From positions 62,001-126,000 of the forward strand of contig MFYJ01000014.1 of NCBI GenBank assembly GCA_001787755.1: a DNA stretch of 64,000 nucleotides, in the 5' to 3' direction. The stretch's first letter is position 1; every line of letters begins with the position of its first letter. Shown here piece after piece: positions 8,044 to 60,096 of the stretch. Made by a program: the position numbers and the translations under genes. The notes beneath the pieces are model-generated. The model was not told where the DNA came from. It searched no databases and saw only the letters and a list, made by a program, of their open reading frames with translations. The DNA comes from Candidatus Peribacteria bacterium RIFOXYB1_FULL_54_35. Lineage in GTDB: Bacteria; Patescibacteriota; Gracilibacteria; Peribacterales; Peribacteraceae.

Positions 8044-8137
8044 GAGATAGCTTGTAGCTTGTAGTGAGTAGGAAGTTTTAGGTTCTGAGCCTCAAAGGAC
8101 TTTTCAGTATTTCCTACAAGCTACACTCTACAAGCTA
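8044..8137. repeat. Word-array inverted repeat (CTTGTAG family)
   Basis: Iterated TAGCTTGTAG words on the left are mirrored by CTACAAGCTA words on the right, with a unique centre. Related gaps lie at 38262-38345 and 50351-50478. It lies between convergent genes and could act as a bidirectional terminator. Confidence 0.7.
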
Positions 8138-8141
8138 TCAA

Positions 8142-14938: not shown

Positions 14939-16030
14939 ATGTTCTCACTCATTCTTCCAACGTATAACGAAGCGAAGAACATCCCTGCTCTCGTGGAGAA
15001 GATCCGGGGTTCCCTCAAGGGTGTTCCGCACGAAATTATCATTGTGGATGACGATTCCCCCGATGAGACGTGGAGAGTGGCGCAGGAGCTTGCGCATGAC
15101 CGCGATGATCTCCATGTGATCCGCCGCATCGGGCGCAGGGGGCTTTCCTCTGCGGTTATCGAGGGATTTCTCGCCGCAAAAGGCGATGTGCTTGGTGTCA
15201 TGGATGCCGACGGGCAGCATGACTGCGGTCTTCTTCCTAAGCTTCATAAAGCCGCTGCCGCGGAAGGCGGCATTGCCATCGGTTCGCGGTACACCGAGGG
15301 GGGGAGTGTGGGAGAGTGGGACGAAAGGCGCCACCTCATGAGTCGCATAGCTACCAGACTTGCAGTTTCTCTCTGCAGGGTGAAGGCGAGCGATCCCATG
15401 AGCGGGTTCTTTGCCATCGACCGGCAGACTTTTGAGAAGGCGCTTCCCAACCTGAATCCCAAAGGGTTCAAAATCCTCCTCGATCTCCTTGTGCACGTTC
15501 CCAAAGGCACGAAGGTGCAGGAGATCCCGTTCACCTTCGGCAAGCGCATGCACGGGGAGAGCAAGCTTTCACGGCGTGTGCAAATTGAGTTCCTCGAGTA
15601 TATCTACGATGTTTCTCTCGGGCGGTACGTTCCGCTCATGTTCGTGAAGTACTGCATCGTTGGTTCGCTTGGTGTCGTTGTTCACGTCTCCGCCTTCACG
15701 TTCTTCGAGTACCTTCTCACGCGCGGGGGAGGAGCCACATTCCAACAGTTCTCCCTCTCAGTTGCGGGAGCCATAGAAACTGCCATCGTTTTCAATTTTT
15801 TGCTGAATAATGCCTGGACGTTCTCGCACATCAAACTGAAGGGGAAGCAGGCGTTCGTCGGGTTCCTCAAGTTCAACGGGGCATGCCTCTTTGGCGCGCT
15901 CGCGAACTACGCCGTGAGTGCCTTCCTCTTCTCCTTTGGGTTTCCTGAGCTTTTCGCTGTGGTGGTGGGTGCGTTCACCGGCGTCATCTGGAACTACACC
16001 ATGAACCGGCTGCTCACGTGGAGAGGATGA
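14939..16030 (+). CDS. GT2 polyprenyl-phosphate glycosyltransferase fused to GtrA
   Basis: 363 aa. Residues 1-230 are a dolichol-phosphate mannosyltransferase-like GT-A domain: LPTYNEAKNIPALVEKI, IIIVDDDSPDETW, DADGQHD as the DXD metal site, and SDPMSGFFAIDR. Residues 235-363 form a GtrA domain with four membrane helices (FVKYCIVGSLGVVVHVSAF; FLLNNAWTF). The fusion couples synthesis of a lipid-phosphate sugar with its transfer across the membrane, supplying GT-C enzymes such as those at 9518, 16467 and 52009. The ATG at 14939 opens the family N-terminus. Confidence 0.9.
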   Translation: MFSLILPTYNEAKNIPALVEKIRGSLKGVPHEIIIVDDDSPDETWRVAQELAHDRDDLHVIRRIGRRGLSSAVIEGFLAAKGDVLGVMDADGQHDCGLLPKLHKAAAAEGGIAIGSRYTEGGSVGEWDERRHLMSRIATRLAVSLCRVKASDPMSGFFAIDRQTFEKALPNLNPKGFKILLDLLVHVPKGTKVQEIPFTFGKRMHGESKLSRRVQIEFLEYIYDVSLGRYVPLMFVKYCIVGSLGVVVHVSAFTFFEYLLTRGGGATFQQFSLSVAGAIETAIVFNFLLNNAWTFSHIKLKGKQAFVGFLKFNGACLFGALANYAVSAFLFSFGFPELFAVVVGAFTGVIWNYTMNRLLTWRG

Positions 16031-16137
16031 TGAATAGCTTGTTAGGTTTATAGCTTCATTAGGGATTCAGATTTTGAATCTGATACCTTGTTACTTTCCG
16101 AGTGCAGCTAATCATCTAATGAAGCTAACAAGCTACT
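16031..16137. repeat. Word-array inverted repeat with conserved centre (AGCTTCATTAG family)
   Basis: Arms of TAGCTT / AGCTTCATTAG words pair with CTAATGAAGCTAACAAGCTA on the right. The centre GGGATT, GATTTTG, ATC, GATACCTT, TTACTTT also occurs, in reverse orientation, at 33729-33818. The two elements are about 17.6 kb apart. Confidence 0.8.
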
Positions 16138-21088: not shown

Positions 21089-21153
21089 TCGTTACTCGTT
21101 CGCTTGTTGCTCGTGAGAACGAGAGAACGAGCCCACGAGTAAACAAGTAACGC
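21089..21153. repeat. Word-array inverted repeat (ACTCGTT family)
   Basis: GTTACTCGTTCGCTTGTTGC on the left is mirrored by ACGAGTAAACAAGTAAC on the right, with GAGAACGAG words between. Nearly the same word set fills 32674-32745, more than 11 kb away. Confidence 0.75.
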
Positions 21154-22454: not shown

Positions 22455-22458
22455 GAAA

Positions 22459-22560
22459 ATCCTGAAAAACTCAAGTTGTCACAGTGAGCTCTGACGAACT
22501 GCGACAACTTGGCGCATGTCATGGTTCGTCAGTGCTCACCATGACATGCTTTTATAGAGC
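22459..22560. repeat. Dispersed palindromic repeat, copy 2 (empty site)
   Basis: Same two hairpins as 1853-1990: arms AGTTGTCACAG / CTGCGACAACT, then GCATGTCATGG / CCATGACATGC. CTCTGACG joins AACTGCGAC directly at 22496/22497, so the 20-bp palindrome present at 1892-1911 is absent. Confidence 0.85.
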
Positions 22561-22587
22561 TTCCCCCACAAACCCCTGAGTGCATGA

Positions 22588-22633
22588 AGAAAAGCCCTGG
22601 CGTCGGTTACCGCGGCGGTAACCAACCCAAGGC
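22588..22633 (-). terminator. Intrinsic terminator of small gene A
   Basis: A long GC-rich stem with inner arms GGTTACCGC / GCGGTAACC (22594-22633), followed on the minus strand by TTTTCTTC. A near-identical copy ends small gene B at 22945-22989. Confidence 0.85.
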
Positions 22634-22641
22634 GTGCCTCC

Positions 22642-22788
22642 TCAGAATCCTTTTTCCCTTGCGGCTTTGCGAAGGGCGGCCTTTTGCTCGTACCAGGCGC
22701 GTACTTCGGCCTTCTTCGCACGTTTTCCCTTTGGTAGGGGTTTTTCGTGCTTTGCGTCGCGCCTCGCCTGCTGACGGTTCTTGGTCAT
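22642..22788 (-). CDS. Small basic protein A (48 aa), unknown function
   Basis: It begins MTKNRQQARRDAKHEK and ends with AALRKAAREKGF; about one third of the residues are Lys or Arg, with no membrane segment. A perfect Shine-Dalgarno AGGAGG lies 6 nt before the ATG at 22788, unusual for this window. The gene has a -35/-10 promoter, a hairpin leader and an intrinsic terminator, all duplicated around gene B, although the two proteins resemble each other only weakly at the N-terminus. A nucleic-acid- or ribosome-binding role is a guess from charge alone. Confidence 0.75.
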   Translation of the reverse strand: MTKNRQQARRDAKHEKPLPKGKRAKKAEVRAWYEQKAALRKAAREKGF

Positions 22789-22924
22789 CGGCACCTCCTT
22801 TCCGGTGATTCAGGTTGGAACAGAAGAGGGGAAGATGCTCTTTTCAAGAGAGCACTCTCCTCTCCCCGTTTTTTGCTGTTTTCAACGATCAAATGGGTTG
22901 TAACTGCTAGTTGTGTAAAATCAA
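22789..22924 (-). promoter_or_regulatory. Promoter and structured leader of small gene A
   Basis: On the minus strand TTGATT (22919-22924) and TACAAC (22897-22902) are spaced by 16 bp. The transcript would begin near 22890 and run about 100 nt to the ATG. It contains a hairpin with arms GAGAGGAGAGTGCTC / GAGCATCTTCCCCTC (about 22823-22867). Promoter, hairpin and SD are all conserved upstream of gene B. Confidence 0.7.
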
Positions 22925-22944
22925 GAATGTTTTTTTATAATATG

Positions 22945-22989
22945 AAAAAGCCCTGGCGTCGGTTACCGTGGCGGTAACCAACCCAAGGC
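22945..22989 (-). terminator. Intrinsic terminator of small gene B
   Basis: Copy of the 22588-22633 terminator, differing by few bases, with TTTTTC on the minus strand after the stem. The promoter of gene A starts immediately after it. Confidence 0.85.
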
Positions 22990-23009
22990 GTGCCTCTTCG
23001 TGGGGAGAA

Positions 23010-23213
23010 TCACCCCCCCTTGGCGGCTTTCATGAGCCGATGGAACTCGCTCTCCGAGATTCTCGGATGTTGCCGAGCAAATTTCTTGGCGGCTTTCACC
23101 GCCTCGGCTTGATGCTGGGCAAGCTTCGCCCTTGCTCGCTTGCCCATTTTTGCATTGGAGTGCTGAGAACTCCGTTCATCAGCTTTTCGCTCCCGTCGGT
23201 TCTTCTTCGACAC
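23010..23213 (-). CDS. Small basic protein B (67 aa), unknown function
   Basis: It begins MSKKNRRERKADERSS, is rich in Lys, Arg, Ala and His, and has a probable amphipathic helix KLAQHQAEAVKAAKKFARQ in the middle. The start is GTG at 23213, with GGAAGGAGGTGAGCA just upstream giving a strong SD. Its promoter, hairpin leader and terminator are sister copies of those of gene A. No family recognised. Confidence 0.75.
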   Translation of the reverse strand: MSKKNRRERKADERSSQHSNAKMGKRARAKLAQHQAEAVKAAKKFARQHPRISESEFHRLMKAAKGG

Positions 23214-23359
23214 TGCTCACCTCCTTCCGGTTATTGGGATGTTGGAAGCTGTTGGGACAGAAGAGGGGAAGATGCTCCGTATAAGCACTCTCCTCTCTTC
23301 GGTTTGATTCATGCTTTCAAAGACTGAATGGATTGTACCGAGTGATTGCTATAAATCAA
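23214..23359 (-). promoter_or_regulatory. Promoter and structured leader of small gene B
   Basis: On the minus strand TTGATT (23354-23359) and TACAAT (23332-23337) are spaced by 16 bp, as for gene A, with matching flanks (ACATTC before the -35). The leader hairpin has arms AGAGGAGAGTGCTT / AGCATCTTCCCCTCT (about 23263-23299), followed by the SD. Confidence 0.7.
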
Positions 23360-23378
23360 GAATGTGTCTTTATGATTT

Positions 23379-23419
23379 GGAAGGCAGAAGTCAGTTTTTT
23401 GTACTGACCTCTGCCTTCC
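23379..23419. terminator. Strong hairpin with T-rich loop
   Basis: Arms GGAAGGCAGAAGTCAGT (23379-23395) and ACTGACCTCTGCCTTCC (23403-23419) differ by one position. It uses the same GAAGGCAG words as 60040-60085. It insulates gene B's promoter from the region to the right. Between it and 23573 I see only AT-rich sequence. Confidence 0.6.
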
Positions 23420-23572
23420 GCTTTTTGCCCTCTTATTCCGAAGTCCTCTGTCTTGCTGTTTTTACCTTCTGTATGCGCAAAATAAGGATGATGTGATGTA
23501 TGGTTGACTCTTTGGTTTCCATTCCTTATTCTGACGAATGTCACTTGTATTCTTGTAATGGTACAAAGTAAT

Positions 23573-23600
23573 TGACAATTATCTGTATTAGTTTATCTTA
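23573..23600 (+). promoter_or_regulatory. Sigma-70-type promoter for the candidate RNA at 23607
   Basis: A consensus -35 TTGACA (23573-23578) is followed after 16 bp by TATCTT (23595-23600). The upstream DNA is AT-rich. Confidence 0.55.
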
Positions 23601-23606
23601 TTCAAA

Positions 23607-23735
23607 GCGATGAAGAACCGTTCCCACCTCATCACCGCCCTGTGCCCGATTCGCTTCCTCTATGAGGAAGGGGTGCTCAGCTGATGGAGAGACAGAACTG
23701 AGTAGCATGCCCCTTCAAAGCAAGAAGGGCTTTTC
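23607..23735 (+). ncRNA. Candidate small structured RNA
   Basis: Between the promoter at 23573 and a terminator hairpin GCCCCTTC / GAAGGGC with TTTTCGTT (23709-23735) lie about 130 nt without a credible open frame. Internal hairpins are TTCCTC / GAGGAA near 23650 and TGCTCAG / CTGAG-AGCA near 23671-23708. I could not match it to SRP, 6S, tmRNA or RNase P RNA by eye. It could instead be an attenuator leader for the gene at 23869. Confidence 0.45.
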
Positions 23736-23868
23736 GTTCATTCACAACACCGTTCTGTATGTACCTTGCTCTTGTGCCTCCTTAACTACTGAAACAATGC
23801 ATAGAAGGGGGCCCACGGATTTCCGTGCCATGTTGGGAGAGCTGGAAACTTTTTGGGAGAATCGTTTT

Positions 23869-24069
23869 ATGGCCAGTCAGAAGGCACTGAGGAAGATGCG
23901 GAGCCGCAATGGGTCCGGTCAAGCGGTCGCTGCCAGCACCAACGGCAACGGCGAGATGTCGGCCGCCGCCCGCAAGCTGCTTGAGAATGCAGCTCTGCGG
24001 GGCGCAACCGGGTCCAACAACGTGACCCGGGAGCGACAGCTTGTTGCTGCTAGGGCCAAGCGTGCCTGA
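23869..24069 (+). CDS. Small basic protein C (66 aa), unknown function
   Basis: It begins MASQKALRKMRSRNG and ends QLVAARAKRA, with a Ser/Asn/Gly-rich linker in the middle and no membrane segment. GGGAG lies 9 nt before the ATG at 23869. The frame is open further upstream (to 23662), but that part crosses the RNA terminator and the module edge, so the short form is preferred. Followed by a strong terminator at 24104. Confidence 0.55.
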   Translation: MASQKALRKMRSRNGSGQAVAASTNGNGEMSAAARKLLENAALRGATGSNNVTRERQLVAARAKRA

Positions 24070-24103
24070 TCTTCTGGGCTTCTTTTCTCATCTCCCAAAC
24101 CCC

Positions 24104-24140
24104 GCTCAGTCCGCTACAGTTTCACTGCGGCGGACTGAGC
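24104..24140 (+). terminator. Terminator-like hairpin after small gene C
   Basis: Perfect 11-bp stem GCTCAGTCCGC / GCGGACTGAGC with a 15-nt loop. Module 2 carries a counterpart at 24401-24438 with a shared loop end (GTTT-ACTGC). Confidence 0.6.
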
Positions 24141-24320
24141 ACATCCTTACCATCCATTTGGGGGGAGCAAGGTGTGTACACCACAGTGATCTTTTAAAGC
24201 GTCGTCTTTCGTACGTACCTTGCTCTTGTACCTCCTTCGTTTTACGGGGGGCGGTCCGCACTTCTGTGTGCCAGCGATGGAAGAGCATTCATAAAGTGAG
24301 AAAAATTCTGAGCATCAGAA

Positions 24321-24367
24321 AGGCTCACCGCACTTGCGAGACCAAGTTCTCCTAAGTGTGGTGAGCC
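24321..24367 (+). ncRNA. Candidate structured RNA inside module 2
   Basis: GGCTCACCGCACTT (24321-24334) pairs with AAGTGTGGTGAGCC (24354-24367) at 13 of 14 positions around a 19-nt loop. A partly paired outer layer (AAAGTGAGAAA with TTTCTCAC) surrounds it. The only open frame here is a 29-codon string without a clear SD. Confidence 0.35.
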
Positions 24368-24400
24368 ACTGGTAGCTCACTTTATTTCTCACCTGACGAA

Positions 24401-24450
24401 GCTCGGTCCGTTTGTGGTTTACTGCAGGCGGACCGAGCAATCTTTTGATT
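24401..24450 (+). terminator. Intrinsic terminator in module 2
   Basis: Perfect 10-bp stem GCTCGGTCCG / CGGACCGAGC (24401-24410, 24429-24438), followed by AATCTTTTGATTTT. Confidence 0.7.
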
Positions 24451-24493
24451 TTATGGAAGGAGCAAGGTGCGTACGTAATTCGTGATAGATGAT

Positions 24494-24533
24494 CTGGTCT
24501 TTTCCAGCCGGTCGCTCGATCGGCGGAGACCAG
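24494..24533 (+). promoter_or_regulatory. Leader hairpin of small gene D
   Basis: CTGGTCT / AGACCAG (24494-24500, 24527-24533) with an inner GCCG / CGGC stem. It ends 30 nt before the start codon. Confidence 0.5.
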
Positions 24534-24562
24534 AGGGGTCTGACGCATGTTGGAGGACCAAT

Positions 24563-24862
24563 ATGTCCCGACGAAAAACCAGACGGGGCAAGCGGTACCA
24601 TGTGCACAATGGGAATGGACGACTCATGTTGAGCCGGAAGGGCGGAAGCCTCCGTTTCCAGCTTCGTTCACTGGTAGCGTGGACTGATCAAGAATGTCCT
24701 TTCTGCGGGGTGTTCCTTGCCAGCAGGAAAAGCTGGCACGAGCATCTCTTCGGCAGGAATGGCGAGGGGCCTCGGTGCCCCAAGGTCCGTGGCTGGTTGC
24801 GGCAACGCAACCGCCCGGTCGGCCGCCGCCGCAGGTGGCGGCTGCAGACGTTCCCCGTTTAG
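24563..24862 (+). CDS. Small Arg-rich zinc-finger-like protein D (99 aa)
   Basis: It begins MSRRKTRRGKRYHVHNG. A zinc-finger-like segment, ECPFCGVFLASRKSWHEHLF (about residues 48-67), has Cys-x2-Cys then His-x-His, with another Cys 12 residues later; Arg-rich tails flank it (RPVGRRRRWRLQ). TTGGAGGACC gives an SD before the ATG at 24563. The sequence around the start, GGAGGACCAATATGTC, is nearly identical to that of small gene E. A nucleic-acid-binding role is plausible from composition only. Confidence 0.7.
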   Translation: MSRRKTRRGKRYHVHNGNGRLMLSRKGGSLRFQLRSLVAWTDQECPFCGVFLASRKSWHEHLFGRNGEGPRCPKVRGWLRQRNRPVGRRRRWRLQTFPV

Positions 24863-24908
24863 CGTTGTTCTCGTCCCATCCGCCAACACGGGTTGGCTCC
24901 ACCTCTTT

Positions 24909-24940
24909 CCAGATCCCGCGGCTTTGGCTTCGGGATCTGG
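24909..24940 (+). terminator. Terminator of small gene D
   Basis: Perfect 9-bp stem CCAGATCCC / GGGATCTGG with a 14-nt loop, followed by GTCTTCTC. Confidence 0.65.
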
Positions 24941-24998
24941 GTCTTCTCAAGATCAGGTCATCTGTCACGTTGTTCTTTTCATTTTCGCAGCAAGAAAC

Positions 24999-25057
24999 CT
25001 GTTCTGCTCAATTTTCACTGACGTAGCGGAGCTCCGTTGCGGGCTCCGGCAGAACAG
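24999..25057 (+). promoter_or_regulatory. Leader hairpin of small gene E
   Basis: Perfect 9-bp stem CTGTTCTGC / GCAGAACAG (24999-25007, 25049-25057) enclosing GGAGC / GCTCC. It ends 22 nt before the ATG. Confidence 0.5.
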
Positions 25058-25079
25058 TACCGATTGTCGGAGGACAAAT

Positions 25080-25193
25080 ATGTCGAAGAACCCCCGGTGT
25101 CCCACCTGTCGCCGTCTCATGAAGAAATGCAAGTGCTCGACTGGTTCGAGCAACACCGATGGCCGGGGAGGGACCAAGCCGAAGAAGGGTTGA
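25080..25193 (+). CDS. Tiny Cys-rich protein E (37 aa)
   Basis: It begins MSKNPRCPTCRRLMKKCKCS: a Cys-x2-Cys followed by Cys-x-Cys, as in a minimal zinc knuckle, then a Ser/Gly/Lys tail. SD GGAGGA lies 7 nt before the ATG. The start context matches gene D. Two strong hairpins follow its stop. No family recognised. Confidence 0.65.
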   Translation: MSKNPRCPTCRRLMKKCKCSTGSSNTDGRGGTKPKKG

Positions 25194-25217
25194 GCGTGTT
25201 GCACTCTGACAATTCCC

Positions 25218-25238
25218 GCCGGTGACTCTGTCACCGGC
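25218..25238 (+). terminator. Terminator-like hairpin 1 after small gene E
   Basis: Perfect stem GCCGGTGAC / GTCACCGGC with a 3-nt loop. Confidence 0.6.
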
Positions 25239-25245
25239 ATCCTTA

Positions 25246-25278
25246 GCGGCTCCGTACTCGTCGAGAGTACGGAGCCGC
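25246..25278. terminator. Hairpin 2 after small gene E
   Basis: Perfect 14-bp stem GCGGCTCCGTACTC / GAGTACGGAGCCGC with a 5-nt loop; no U-tract follows. Confidence 0.55.
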
Positions 25279-25313
25279 GCATCTTCAGAACAGATTTCTT
25301 GGTGCCAGCTCCG

Positions 25314-25420
25314 CCACTCTTCGACGAACTCAGGGTGGCAGCGTACAATTGTCATTGCGGAGAATAACAAGGCCATAGCGGGTCAGTTGTGTCATGGATT
25401 CGACTCCGCTCACCATGACG
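25314..25420. repeat. Two palindromic repeat units of the CCTGAG/GTCGAAG class
   Basis: CCACTC-TTCGACGAACTCAG-GGTGG at 25314-25338, and GTCATGGATTCGACTCCGCT-CACCATGAC at about 25392-25420. Both are short hairpins related to those at 1936, 22521 and 36153. Confidence 0.5.
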
Positions 25421-25439
25421 AAAAGGGTACAATTGTTCC

Positions 25440-29242: not shown

Positions 29243-29340
29243 CGCCGTTTGATCCGCATTGGCATACGTCATCATTCCATATTCCATACTTTCCTTCTTT
29301 ACAGAGTACTGTGCTTGTTCACTCTGGTGGGTTGCGGAAC

Positions 29341-29783
29341 ACACAGTATTTTCGGATTCGCACTTCGTCCTTCGGACTCGTGCTCATCTGCAATTCAACT
29401 GTGGTGGGGAGTTGTACATATGCATGTCCTCTCTGTCGTGTAGTCCCGTTCGCTGCGGCTCACGGGACACAGTATCTTCGGACTCGTTCCCATTTCTTTC
29501 TTCTTTACACAGTACTGCGCTCAGAGGAAGGTGTGTATGTCCTCTCTGTTGTGCAGTCCCGTTCGCCTGCGGCTCACGGGACACAGTATCTTCGGATTCG
29601 CATTTCGTCCTTCGGACTCGTGCTCATCTCGAATTCAGTGGTGAGCTCGTCGAACCATGGCGGGAGAGGCACGTGTGCATGTTCTCTCTGTTGAGCAGTC
29701 CCGTTCGCCTGCGGCTCACGGGACACAGTATCTTCGGATTCGCACTTCGTCCTTCGGACTCGTGCTCATCTCGAATTCAACTG
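29341..29783. repeat. Tandem array abutting the tRNA-Ser 3' end
   Basis: Units begin ACACAGTATCTTCGGA at 29341, 29467, 29581 and 29723 (114-142 bp apart). Each includes the hairpin GTCCCGTTCG / CACGGGAC, and several end with CAACTGTGG or a variant. The last unit runs directly into the tRNA-Ser CCA end, and the earlier CTGTGG-TGGGGAG imitates that end. Confidence 0.8.
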
Positions 29784-29873
29784 TGGCGGAGGGACAGGGA
29801 TTTGAACCCTGGAACCCCTTGCGGGGTTACACGCTTTCCAGGCGTGCGCCATAGACCACTCGGCCATCCCTCC
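29784..29873 (-). tRNA. tRNA-Ser (GGA anticodon)
   Basis: 90 nt including an encoded CCA. The acceptor arms are GGAGGGA / TCCCTCC with discriminator G; the long variable arm (CCCCGCAAGGGG) is typical of Ser; the anticodon loop CTGGAAA gives GGA, reading UCC/UCU. The T arm GGTTCAAATCC is canonical. Confidence 0.95.
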
Positions 29874-32673: not shown

Positions 32674-32745
32674 TCGTTACTCGTTGACTCGTTCGCTCGT
32701 TTCTCGTTTGAACGAGCCAACGAGAGAACGAGCTAACGAATCAAT
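32674..32745. repeat. Word-array inverted repeat (ACTCGTT family)
   Basis: TCGTTACTCGTT-GACTCGTTCGCTCGTT on the left and AACGAGCCAACGAGAG-AACGAGCTAACGA on the right. Shares words and order with 21089-21153. Confidence 0.75.
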
Positions 32746-33728: not shown

Positions 33729-33818
33729 TTCTTAGTCTATAGCTTCGTTAGCTTCATTAGAAAAGTAATAAGGTATCTGATCCAAAATCCAAATCCCTAA
33801 TGAAGCTAATGCAGCTAT
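33729..33818. repeat. Word-array inverted repeat with conserved centre (AGCTTCATTAG family, reverse copy)
   Basis: TAGCTTCGTTAGCTTCATTAG on the left (two runs) mirrors CTAATGAAGCTAATGCAGCTA on the right. Its centre, read on the minus strand, matches 16031-16137 (GATTTTG, ATC, GATACCTT, TTACTTT). Confidence 0.8.
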
Positions 33819-33830
33819 GTACTATATTCT

Positions 33831-36048: not shown

Positions 36049-36152
36049 GACGGACGATTAACTTATAGCTGTCAGCTTTCGGAAGGGTCTTAAGGTTGAA
36101 GACTAAAGAAAAAACTTGGTGGTTATCCTTTGAAGGACAATATACAAAGCGG

Positions 36153-36241
36153 TGTCATCCTGAGCTTGTCGAAGGAGGGCACCGCGTGATGGTACGTGGT
36201 TCGACAAGCTCAGGATGACAGCTCACCATGACACGCGGTGC
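36153..36241. repeat. Two interleaved inverted repeats
   Basis: Arms GTCATCCTGAGCTTGTCGAA / TTCGACAAGCTCAGGATGAC (36154-36173, 36200-36219; 21 bp with the flanking T/A) alternate with GCACCGCGTGATGGT / ACCATGACACGCGGTGC (about 36179-36193, 36225-36240). The order is left1, left2, right1, right2. The rest of the 36049-36339 gap holds no gene. Confidence 0.75.
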
Positions 36242-37680: not shown

Positions 37681-38265
37681 ATGCCAGTCCCGCCGAATAT
37701 ACCAGCGAATGGAGGAGAGTTGTGTGTCTCAAAGCACATGCGTGTGCAGGAGCTCCTTGCACTTTTTCCTCAGGCCGCGGATGTAATGCAGGAGTATGGT
37801 CTCCATTGTTTTGCCTGCGATCTGGGTGGCATGGAAACCCTTGAAGAGGGGTGCCAGGCACACCATATGGGTGGTGAAGAGATCGATGAGCTGATTGATG
37901 ACATCAATACTGCCATTGCTGAGTCTCCGAAACGGGAATGGGTTCTCACCATCACACCCGCTGCCGCCGAGGGCATTGCTGCCATTGCGGAGGCCGAGGG
38001 GCGCAAGCATCTGGCACTCCGCGTCGCTGTGGATGCTGAGGGCAGCTTCTGTCTGGAATTCTGTGAGGAGCCAGGAGAGTTTGACAGGGTATTTCCCTGT
38101 GAGGGCCGCCAGGATGTGCGTGTGTTCGCCTCGCCGCTTGCACTCCAGCGCGTGGGAGGAGGAACAATCGATATGCGCGACGGCCGCTTTAAGTTGGATT
38201 TGCCGGAGGAGCAAGGATCATGCTGTTCCGGTGACGAGTGTGCGTGTAAGAAGAAGGCATTATAG
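37681..38265 (+). CDS. DUF1858-HesB-like fusion protein with Cys-rich tail
   Basis: 194 aa. The first part (from MRVQELLALFPQAADVMQEY, through GLHCFACDLGGMETLEEGCQ, to LIDDINTAIAES) is a DUF1858 domain with the typical C-x2-C. The second (WVLTITPAAAEGIAAIAEAE onward) resembles A-type Fe-S carriers (IscA/HesB), but the usual C-x-C end is replaced by GSCCSGDECACKKK. It may carry Fe-S clusters with SufS and SufU. The start is uncertain: 37681 or the ATG at 37738. Confidence 0.75.
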   Translation: MPVPPNIPANGGELCVSKHMRVQELLALFPQAADVMQEYGLHCFACDLGGMETLEEGCQAHHMGGEEIDELIDDINTAIAESPKREWVLTITPAAAEGIAAIAEAEGRKHLALRVAVDAEGSFCLEFCEEPGEFDRVFPCEGRQDVRVFASPLALQRVGGGTIDMRDGRFKLDLPEEQGSCCSGDECACKKKAL

Positions 38266-38345
38266 TTTGTAGCTGGTAGGAAATCACAAGGCCAAAGCAC
38301 GAAAGCTCTTCCCTACAACCTACAAACTACAAGCTCCAACCTCCA
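38262..38345. repeat. Word-array inverted repeat (CTTGTAG family)
   Basis: TAGTTTGTAGCTGGTAGGAA at the left, and TTCCCTACAACCTACAAACT with ACAAGCTCC words at the right. Shares TAGGAAATC with 50351-50478. Confidence 0.65.
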
Positions 38346-38402
38346 AGCTCAGCCGAAGGCTGTGGTCTGTCAGAAACGGTGCTCATCCTCTATGCTATGG
38401 CT

Positions 38403-49414: not shown

Positions 49415-49489
49415 TGGAGCCGCCCGCGGGAATTGAACCCGCGACCCCCTCCTTACCATGGAGGTGCTCTACCCCTGAGCTAGGGCGGC
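49415..49489 (-). tRNA. tRNA-Thr (GGT anticodon)
   Basis: 75 nt including an encoded CCA. Acceptor arms GCCGCCC / GGGCGGC; D arm GCTCAGGGGTAGAGC; anticodon arm CCTCC-ATGGTAA-GGAGG gives GGT; T arm GCGGGTTCAATTCCCGC. The 5' end is the site where a partial tandem array begins. Confidence 0.95.
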
Positions 49490-49650
49490 ATTGTTTCATG
49501 GGATGATGGAATGAACAGATTCTCAACCGAGCAGTGCTCTTTATCACGCCCCGCTTCGCGGGGCTGGGCCCTGAGCTAGGGCGGCGTTATCCTGTGGGAT
49601 GGTGGAATGAACAGATTCTCAACCGAGCAGTGCTCTTTATCACGCCCCGC

Positions 49651-49675
49651 TGTCATCCTGAGCGCAGTCGAAAGA
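49651..49675. repeat. CCTGAGC/GTCGAA palindromic element, inserted in array copy 2
   Basis: TGTCATCCTGAGCGCAGTCG and AAAGA replace TT (49555-49556 in copy 1) between identical CACGCCCCGC and CGCGGGGCTGG. Confidence 0.8.
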
Positions 49676-50350: not shown

Positions 50351-50478
50351 TCCTTGTGAGCTTGTAGATGGTAGTTTGTAGTTTGTAGGTTGTAGCTTGT
50401 AGGAAATCCCAAATACCCAAAATACAAATACAAAATATGAGGCTACAACCTACCACCTACCACCTACAAACTAACTAG
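50351..50478. repeat. Word-array inverted repeat (CTTGTAG family)
   Basis: GAGCTTGTAGATGGTAGTTT and GTTGTAGCTTGTAGGAAATC on the left; GGCTACAACCTACCACCTAC and CTACAAACTAACTAGCTA on the right. Confidence 0.75.
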
Positions 50479-60039: not shown

Positions 60040-60085
60040 TCAGAAGGCAGTAAGCAGTAACTGACTTCTGGCTTCTGTTTTCTAA
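60040..60085. repeat. Word-array (AGAAGGCAG family)
   Basis: CAGAAGGCAGTAAGCAGTAA is mirrored by CTGACTTCTGGCTTCTG. Words recur at 23379 and inside the oxidoreductase gene near 12175-12215. Confidence 0.6.
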
Positions 60086-60096
60086 TTCCTATTTCG

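Follow-up and report, generated by a model that had tools for sequence, protein, structure and literature searches.

A dispersed, word-built hairpin repeat between the genes of a Peribacteraceae relative is one of many in the family

Introduction

What kind of element is an array of short words, arranged in inverted order around a centre, that lies between two genes and recurs in the opposite orientation elsewhere on the same contig? The question was raised by a 64,000-nt stretch of DNA (the window) from genome G000, a 1.56-Mb, 97.85% complete Peribacteraceae relative (Patescibacteria) that comparison with named relatives placed near Candidatus Peribacteria/Peribacteraceae. The first-pass annotation of the window had described a fixed core with a specific orientation, set between arms that change by words of 7-9 bases. 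Here we examine this element, called class A, across G000, together with the same sites in two congeners, G001 (mean protein identity to G000 69%, 74 reciprocal best hits) and G002 (72%, 35 reciprocal best hits). Class A proves to be genuine: a hairpin repeat built of words and present in many copies, with many others of its sort in the family. It is best described as a small dispersed intergenic repeat.

Results

The first copy occupies positions 16031..16135 on the plus strand, and starts directly after the TGA stop codon (16028-16030) of a glycosyltransferase/GtrA gene. By sequence reading, aided by word counts for the 5' arm and by copy alignment for the centre, it was divided into a 5' arm at 16035..16062 with the words TAGCTTGT-TAGGTTTA-TAGCTTCAT-TAG, a centre (core) GGATTCAGATTTTGAATCTGATACCTTGTTACTTTC at 16063..16098, and a 3' arm of complementary-strand words at 16099..16135, which ends in AACAAGCTA. 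The second copy lies on the minus strand at 33729..33824, in the gap between rpmH and a small membrane ORF, and its centre (33761-33796, minus strand) is the same as that of copy C12:152107. The ORF after rpmH was considered as rnpA, an assignment that was dropped as it had no Pfam match. Direct reading of 16031-16137 and of the reversed 33729-33818 confirmed the blocks said to be common to them: the plus strand at 16052-16097 reads AGCTTCATTAGGGATT-C-AGATTTTGAATC-TGATACCTTG-TTACTTT, and the minus strand of 33729-33818 reads AGCTTCATTAGGGATT-TG-GATTTTGGATC-AGATACCTTA-TTACTTT. Among the inverted pairs that a repeat finder listed for the window, 16051-16111 with 33748-33808 was the longest, at 61 nt and 85% complementarity, its two members lying 17,636 nt apart. 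The sequence AGCTTCATTAGG, with at most one mismatch, had 4 matches where 0.22 were expected by shuffling, and none of 100 shuffles reached 4.

A DNA search of the whole genome gave 59 matches, many of which were arms matching one another. A covariance model (R1), built from 20 aligned copies that are themselves among the places found, located class A at 25 or more distinct places in the 1.56-Mb genome (Evalue <= 0.1), a lower bound with at most 150 of 269 first-look candidates scored. The founding pair is thus not a single duplication, and the view of a recurrent, oriented element beyond low complexity was upheld. Plain replication slippage, giving low-complexity DNA that is self-complementary by chance, is very improbable as the source. 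It would suit the near-pure tandems seen in some gaps of other languages, such as (TTACTAG)n in G002, but slippage alone yields neither 25 copies with a homologous, non-repetitive centre nor arms of one language in inverted order.

The arms are made of TAG-initial words of 8-9 nt (TAGCTTCAT, TAGCTGCAT, TAGCTTGT, TAGGTTTA and others), with the reverse complement on the opposite side, around a centre of about 36 nt with the consensus GGATTTGGATTTTGGATCTGATACCTTGTTACTTTC. Arms and centre were compared in 24 of the 25 copies, the interrupted copy C10:47780 being excluded. Mean pairwise identity was 0.70 in the centre (0.57 after shuffling). In the two arms it reached 0.88 and 0.82 over the 20 nt nearest the centre but 0.63 and 0.68 over the outermost 20 nt; shuffling gave 0.55-0.57 overall. 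The words that flank the centre are the most conserved, the centre is less so, and the outer words are the least conserved. The annotated picture of a fixed core between variable arms therefore stands in one half: the outer arms do vary in words of 7-9 nt, but the core is not the fixed part. The arms also swap sides: 6 copies carry the phrase TAGGY in the 5' arm and 10 carry it in the 3' arm, 8 have it in neither, and no copy has it in both. The pattern resembles the outcome of a flip of the centre between the arms.

Sister copies whose centres are nearly identical agree over about 12-32 nt of each arm, beyond which other words abruptly begin; the ends of the elements vary, and the similarity of sister copies stops within the arms. 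Close pairs occur on different contigs, for example C1:57448 and C14:170034. Copy C10:47780 is split by 151 nt with another repeat, related to window positions 22477-22555 and 36142-36220, and TAGG is possibly duplicated at the junctions. The split copy speaks for insertion events, whereas mosaic copies, and gaps that are used again, point to existing sites being rewritten; both may happen.

Other dispersed palindromic repeats, of the TGTCATCCTGAGCTTGTCGAA and TTCGACTACGCTCACCATGAC types and some of them nested, lie in the window at 1911-1965, 22496-22550, 25399-25419 and 36153-36220. The split copy C10:47780 contains related sequence. A second dispersed repeat in G000 (GATCCAAGATACAAATTACAAG..., at L086 5678-5881 and 7190-7430) shows the reverse of the class A pattern, with arms that are conserved and a centre that has diverged.

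The description as a recurrent element, right as far as it goes, is incomplete because class A is one of many unrelated word languages in the genome and the family. Within the window, another language of 7-nt TAGCTTG words fills the gap between two convergent ORFs at 8044..8141. Further 7-nt arrays consist of TAGTTTG/CTACAAC words at 38263..38351, where the upstream ORF ends on the array's own TAG, and of TAGTTTG/CTACCAC words at 50358..50473 (repeat finder and sequence reading). Sequence reading and folding revealed 8-nt CTCGTTCG/GAACGAGC words at 21090..21153 and the same language at 32674..32742, and the gap census added a short array between convergent ORFs at 60040..60096.

For the family, gaps of 40-600 nt were tested for a period of 6-10 nt against 100 dinucleotide shuffles, a gap passing at p <= 0.02 (per gap, uncorrected); the gap censuses covered gaps of up to 600-800 nt, in genomes with at least 14 kb sampled, and relied on our own simple gene caller, as did the stop-codon work. 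Leaving G001 aside, 90 of the family's 346 sampled gaps, spread over 17 genomes, passed where about 7 were expected, and in G001 2 of 58 did. In a 100-kb control from E. coli K-12 only 1 of 45 gaps was periodic, though 15 of the 45 folded with z < -3; gap hairpins are ordinary, and word periodicity is not. Periodic gaps were also hairpin gaps in 39 of 90 cases, compared with 52 of the 256 other gaps (p = 4e-5). Some genomes appeared array-poor on few gaps (G003 0/7, G007 0/6, G010 0/13, G011 0/3, G018 0/3 and G019 0/9). The gap downstream of rpmH was shorter than 30 nt in 9 of 19 named relatives, and 7 of the 10 longer ones were periodic (p <= 0.005), in about six languages. Class A belongs to a wider Peribacteraceae kind of inverted-repeat element, whose arms are arrays of 6-9 nt words in genome-specific languages.

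Repetition of other sorts was also seen in the window. About 3 kb without a called gene (22455-25439) contains internal duplications spaced 356-454 nt apart, and the orthologous gap in G002 is also long. Positions 29283-29779, which adjoin a tRNA-Ser gene (29784-29873), contain a 115-nt stretch in two to three diverged copies, together with 47- and 34-nt stretches in three copies each, with start spacings of 113-240 nt. At 49473-49651, an 83-nt stretch that overlaps a tRNA-Thr gene (49415-49489) has a second copy, 92% identical, at a distance of 96 nt.

The genes on either side of the 25 class A places are convergent in 12 cases, co-directional in 11 and divergent in 1, with 1 place not callable, and most copies abut a stop codon. 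TAG accounted for 19 of 29 stop codons beside class A, whereas across the sampled genome it made up 38 of 111 (Fisher p = 0.003); beside all array gaps of G000 the difference was not significant (18/39 vs 13/43, p = 0.17). In several convergent pairs, such as C11:131049, the element's own TAG words are both stop codons, and at this site in G001 the two stops almost touch. A DNA uptake sequence was considered and rejected, TTAGCTTCA occurring 17 times inside class A and once outside it in 124,256 nt.

Position and folding raise the possibility of functional RNA hairpins at gene 3' ends, either intrinsic terminators or mRNA stabilisers, needed since the group is without Rho. In G000 and G002 together, 30 of the 74 gaps that adjoin a gene 3' end had a hairpin, compared with 1 of 23 divergent gaps (p = 0.0007), and the two class A copies of the window folded with z-scores of -4.5 to -6.9 on either strand. 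Profile searches of 24 group genomes (G000-G014 and G024-G032) gave no Rho match above the curated cut-off in any of them; the weaker hits, the best of them at 1.2e-14, resemble paired ATPase genes. Several results make such a function unlikely, however. The 3'-end excess of hairpins was not significant in the remaining family genomes alone (p = 0.13), and neither window element has a T-run directly after its stem. G001 is also without Rho, yet it has word arrays in only the 2 gaps noted above, and of its 21 convergent gaps 15 are either shorter than 40 or longer than 800 nt. The scan for an intrinsic-terminator consensus admitted loops of 3-8 only and could not flag class A, and an Rfam search of the window returned two tRNAs only, with no family at class A.

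The arms themselves do not co-evolve. RNAalifold on the class A alignment gave 9 conserved pairs, of which none showed compensatory changes. Over 24 copies, the duplex of an element's own arms (-31.5 kcal/mol) was no stronger than that of arms taken from different copies (-33.0 kcal/mol; permutation p = 0.915), either in the outer (p = 0.43) or in the inner arms (p = 0.76). A covarying RNA was ruled out for class A by these results. Permutation of word order within single arrays gave p <= 0.05 in 43 of 58 arrays (17 more, with arms shorter than 21 nt, were excluded), a figure that is biased, since permutation followed the selection of the best-aligning arm. Arm complementarity stems from a common vocabulary, with no sign of a maintained RNA helix.

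We then compared the same sites in the congeners. The R1 search of G001 found no class A, and among 11 class A sites compared, 8 were array-free in G001 with both flanks aligned, and 3 carried other DNA. At one of the 8, C14:170034, the right-hand alignment begins inside the arm. No target duplication was visible at the array-free sites, the relatives being distant. None of 12 G001 gaps orthologous to array gaps of G000 had an array. In G002, 4 of 5 class A sites compared had a word array of another language or centre: GTTACTGG words at the counterpart of the 16031 site, related words with a different centre at that of the 33729 site, GTTATTG words at that of C14:157611 and TAGCGTTAC words at that of C1:57448. 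The counterpart of C1:65651 had no word array. Two G002 loci had in common one centre, G002's own.

Occupation by an array or hairpin was correlated over 23 orthologous gaps of G000 and G002 (8 in both, 1 in G000 only, 4 in G002 only, 10 in neither; Fisher p = 0.009), and for arrays alone the association was not significant (4, 2, 4 and 13, respectively; p = 0.13). One possible reading, which we put forward tentatively, is that Peribacteraceae carry self-renewing intergenic elements: certain gene 3'-end gaps would be persistent word-array hairpin sites whose text, words and centre alike, would be repeatedly overwritten by the current languages of the genome, in a form of concerted evolution that word-level homology would drive without a dedicated transposase. 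Species would then keep the sites and not the sequence. The nearest relatives are only about 70% identical in protein, and intermediates are therefore missing.

Dispersal to new sites and nested insertion also fit a transposase. A non-autonomous MITE- or REPIN-like element, mobilised in trans and preferring or surviving at gene 3' ends, would explain the 25 dispersed copies, the close pairs on separate contigs (C1:57448 and C14:170034), the array-free orthologous gaps in G001 and the split of C10:47780 with its possible TAGG duplication. Y1_Tnp (PF01797), the one transposase family searched, had no match in the 97.85%-complete G000, and the same profile matched 5 of 14 control genomes. Neither fixed ends nor clear target duplications were seen in class A, and the similarity that stops inside the arms of sister copies also argues against this origin, which we hold to be rather doubtful. 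A phage origin was dropped after searches for exact pattern matches in viral contigs, and for matches in phage records, both came back empty.

A word-adding enzyme was also weighed, in which a telomerase-like reverse transcriptase would extend broken ends with template words, the ends then being joined head to head. Head-to-head tandem words around a filler, in languages that differ per genome, are what it would produce, but the class A centre is common to different sites, and the reverse transcriptase profile RVT_1 (PF00078) had no match in G000. The profile matched in 7 of the 24 group genomes, with a distribution that does not track the arrays, and we find this explanation scarcely credible. 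Reverse-transcriptase-like matches in G032 (C3, C8 and C9) contain 5-10 internal TGA codons, which would fit TGA being read as an amino acid.

The hairpin nuclease SbcD was detected in none of the 24 group genomes, compared with 13 of 14 control genomes. Being group-wide, its absence is permissive at most, and the absence of SbcD and Rho does not separate array-poor G001 from array-rich G002. Missing both, the group may find stable hairpins tolerable, and perhaps useful.

Discussion

Our main reading, to which we give a probability of about 0.5, is that class A elements are dispersed, non-coding hairpin repeats of intergenic DNA, spread and rewritten at tolerated 3'-end sites by repeat-guided recombination or template switching, perhaps with a mobiliser seeding them. 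Elements would land or persist only where they are harmless, directly at stop codons, and the lack of a detectable SbcD in the whole group would make the hairpins tolerable. Ectopic recombination or gene conversion would carry the centre and inner words from site to site, with the shared words as homology; the outer words would turn over through slippage in word units; and template switching or recombination may flip the centre relative to its inverted arms. An enzyme would seed new sites, if any does. No cellular function is needed to account for the data. No recombination or conversion event was directly seen, which counts against that part of the reading, and we infer the mechanism from home-made gene calls, small samples per genome, many uncorrected gap tests and comparisons above strain level.

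Class A resembles several known systems in part. REP repeats are described as short palindromic extragenic sequences that for the most part follow coding regions, in gaps whose neighbouring genes converge or run in the same direction (PMC3733652). Class A is likewise dispersed, extragenic, palindromic and near gene 3' ends, as are REP/REPIN sequences with their unpaired GTAG or CGTC tags. It differs in its length (about 100 nt, against a REP palindrome of 20-40 nt), in its variable ends, where GTAG is not a fixed tag, in its approximately 36-nt centre and tandem-word arms with languages that differ between congeners, and in that the cognate tyrosine transposase (RAYT, Y1_Tnp) was not found in G000. 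MITEs share with it dispersal, lack of coding and inverted termini, but have fixed ends and clear target duplications, which were not seen in class A.

Heptamer repeats are described in passages on Xanthomonas (GGGAATC), Nostoc (GGGGATT) and Beggiatoaceae (TAACTGA) (PMC4692102, PMC4679880); most of those in Xanthomonas are described as occupying matching gene intervals in two species while varying widely in length and sequence (PMC4692102). They are intergenic 7-nt tandem units like some arrays here. They consist of one fixed direct unit, however, whereas the arrays here are inverted pairs around a centre, with words of 6-9 nt (8-9 nt in class A arms) that vary within an array, and with many languages per genome. 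Quasipalindromes made by template switching likewise have inverted arms and a spacer able to flip, and the process is described as usually homogenising the arms (PMC8604942); such homogenisation was not detected in class A, which speaks against template switching.

A term search of a paper on five complete Peribacteria genomes returned 5 mentions of 'repeat', none of them on intergenic hairpins, and 0 of 'intergenic', 'palindrom', 'hairpin' or 'transpos'. In the literature outside most subscription journals, we found no description of such elements in Patescibacteria/Peregrinibacteria or as word repeats.

The absence of SbcD and Rho makes the group well suited to work on hairpin DNA, and nearly array-free G001 and array-rich G002 offer a natural comparison for finding the genes responsible. 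If our reading is right, a large share of the non-coding DNA in these tiny genomes would be a fast-rewriting repeat system without a known mobiliser.
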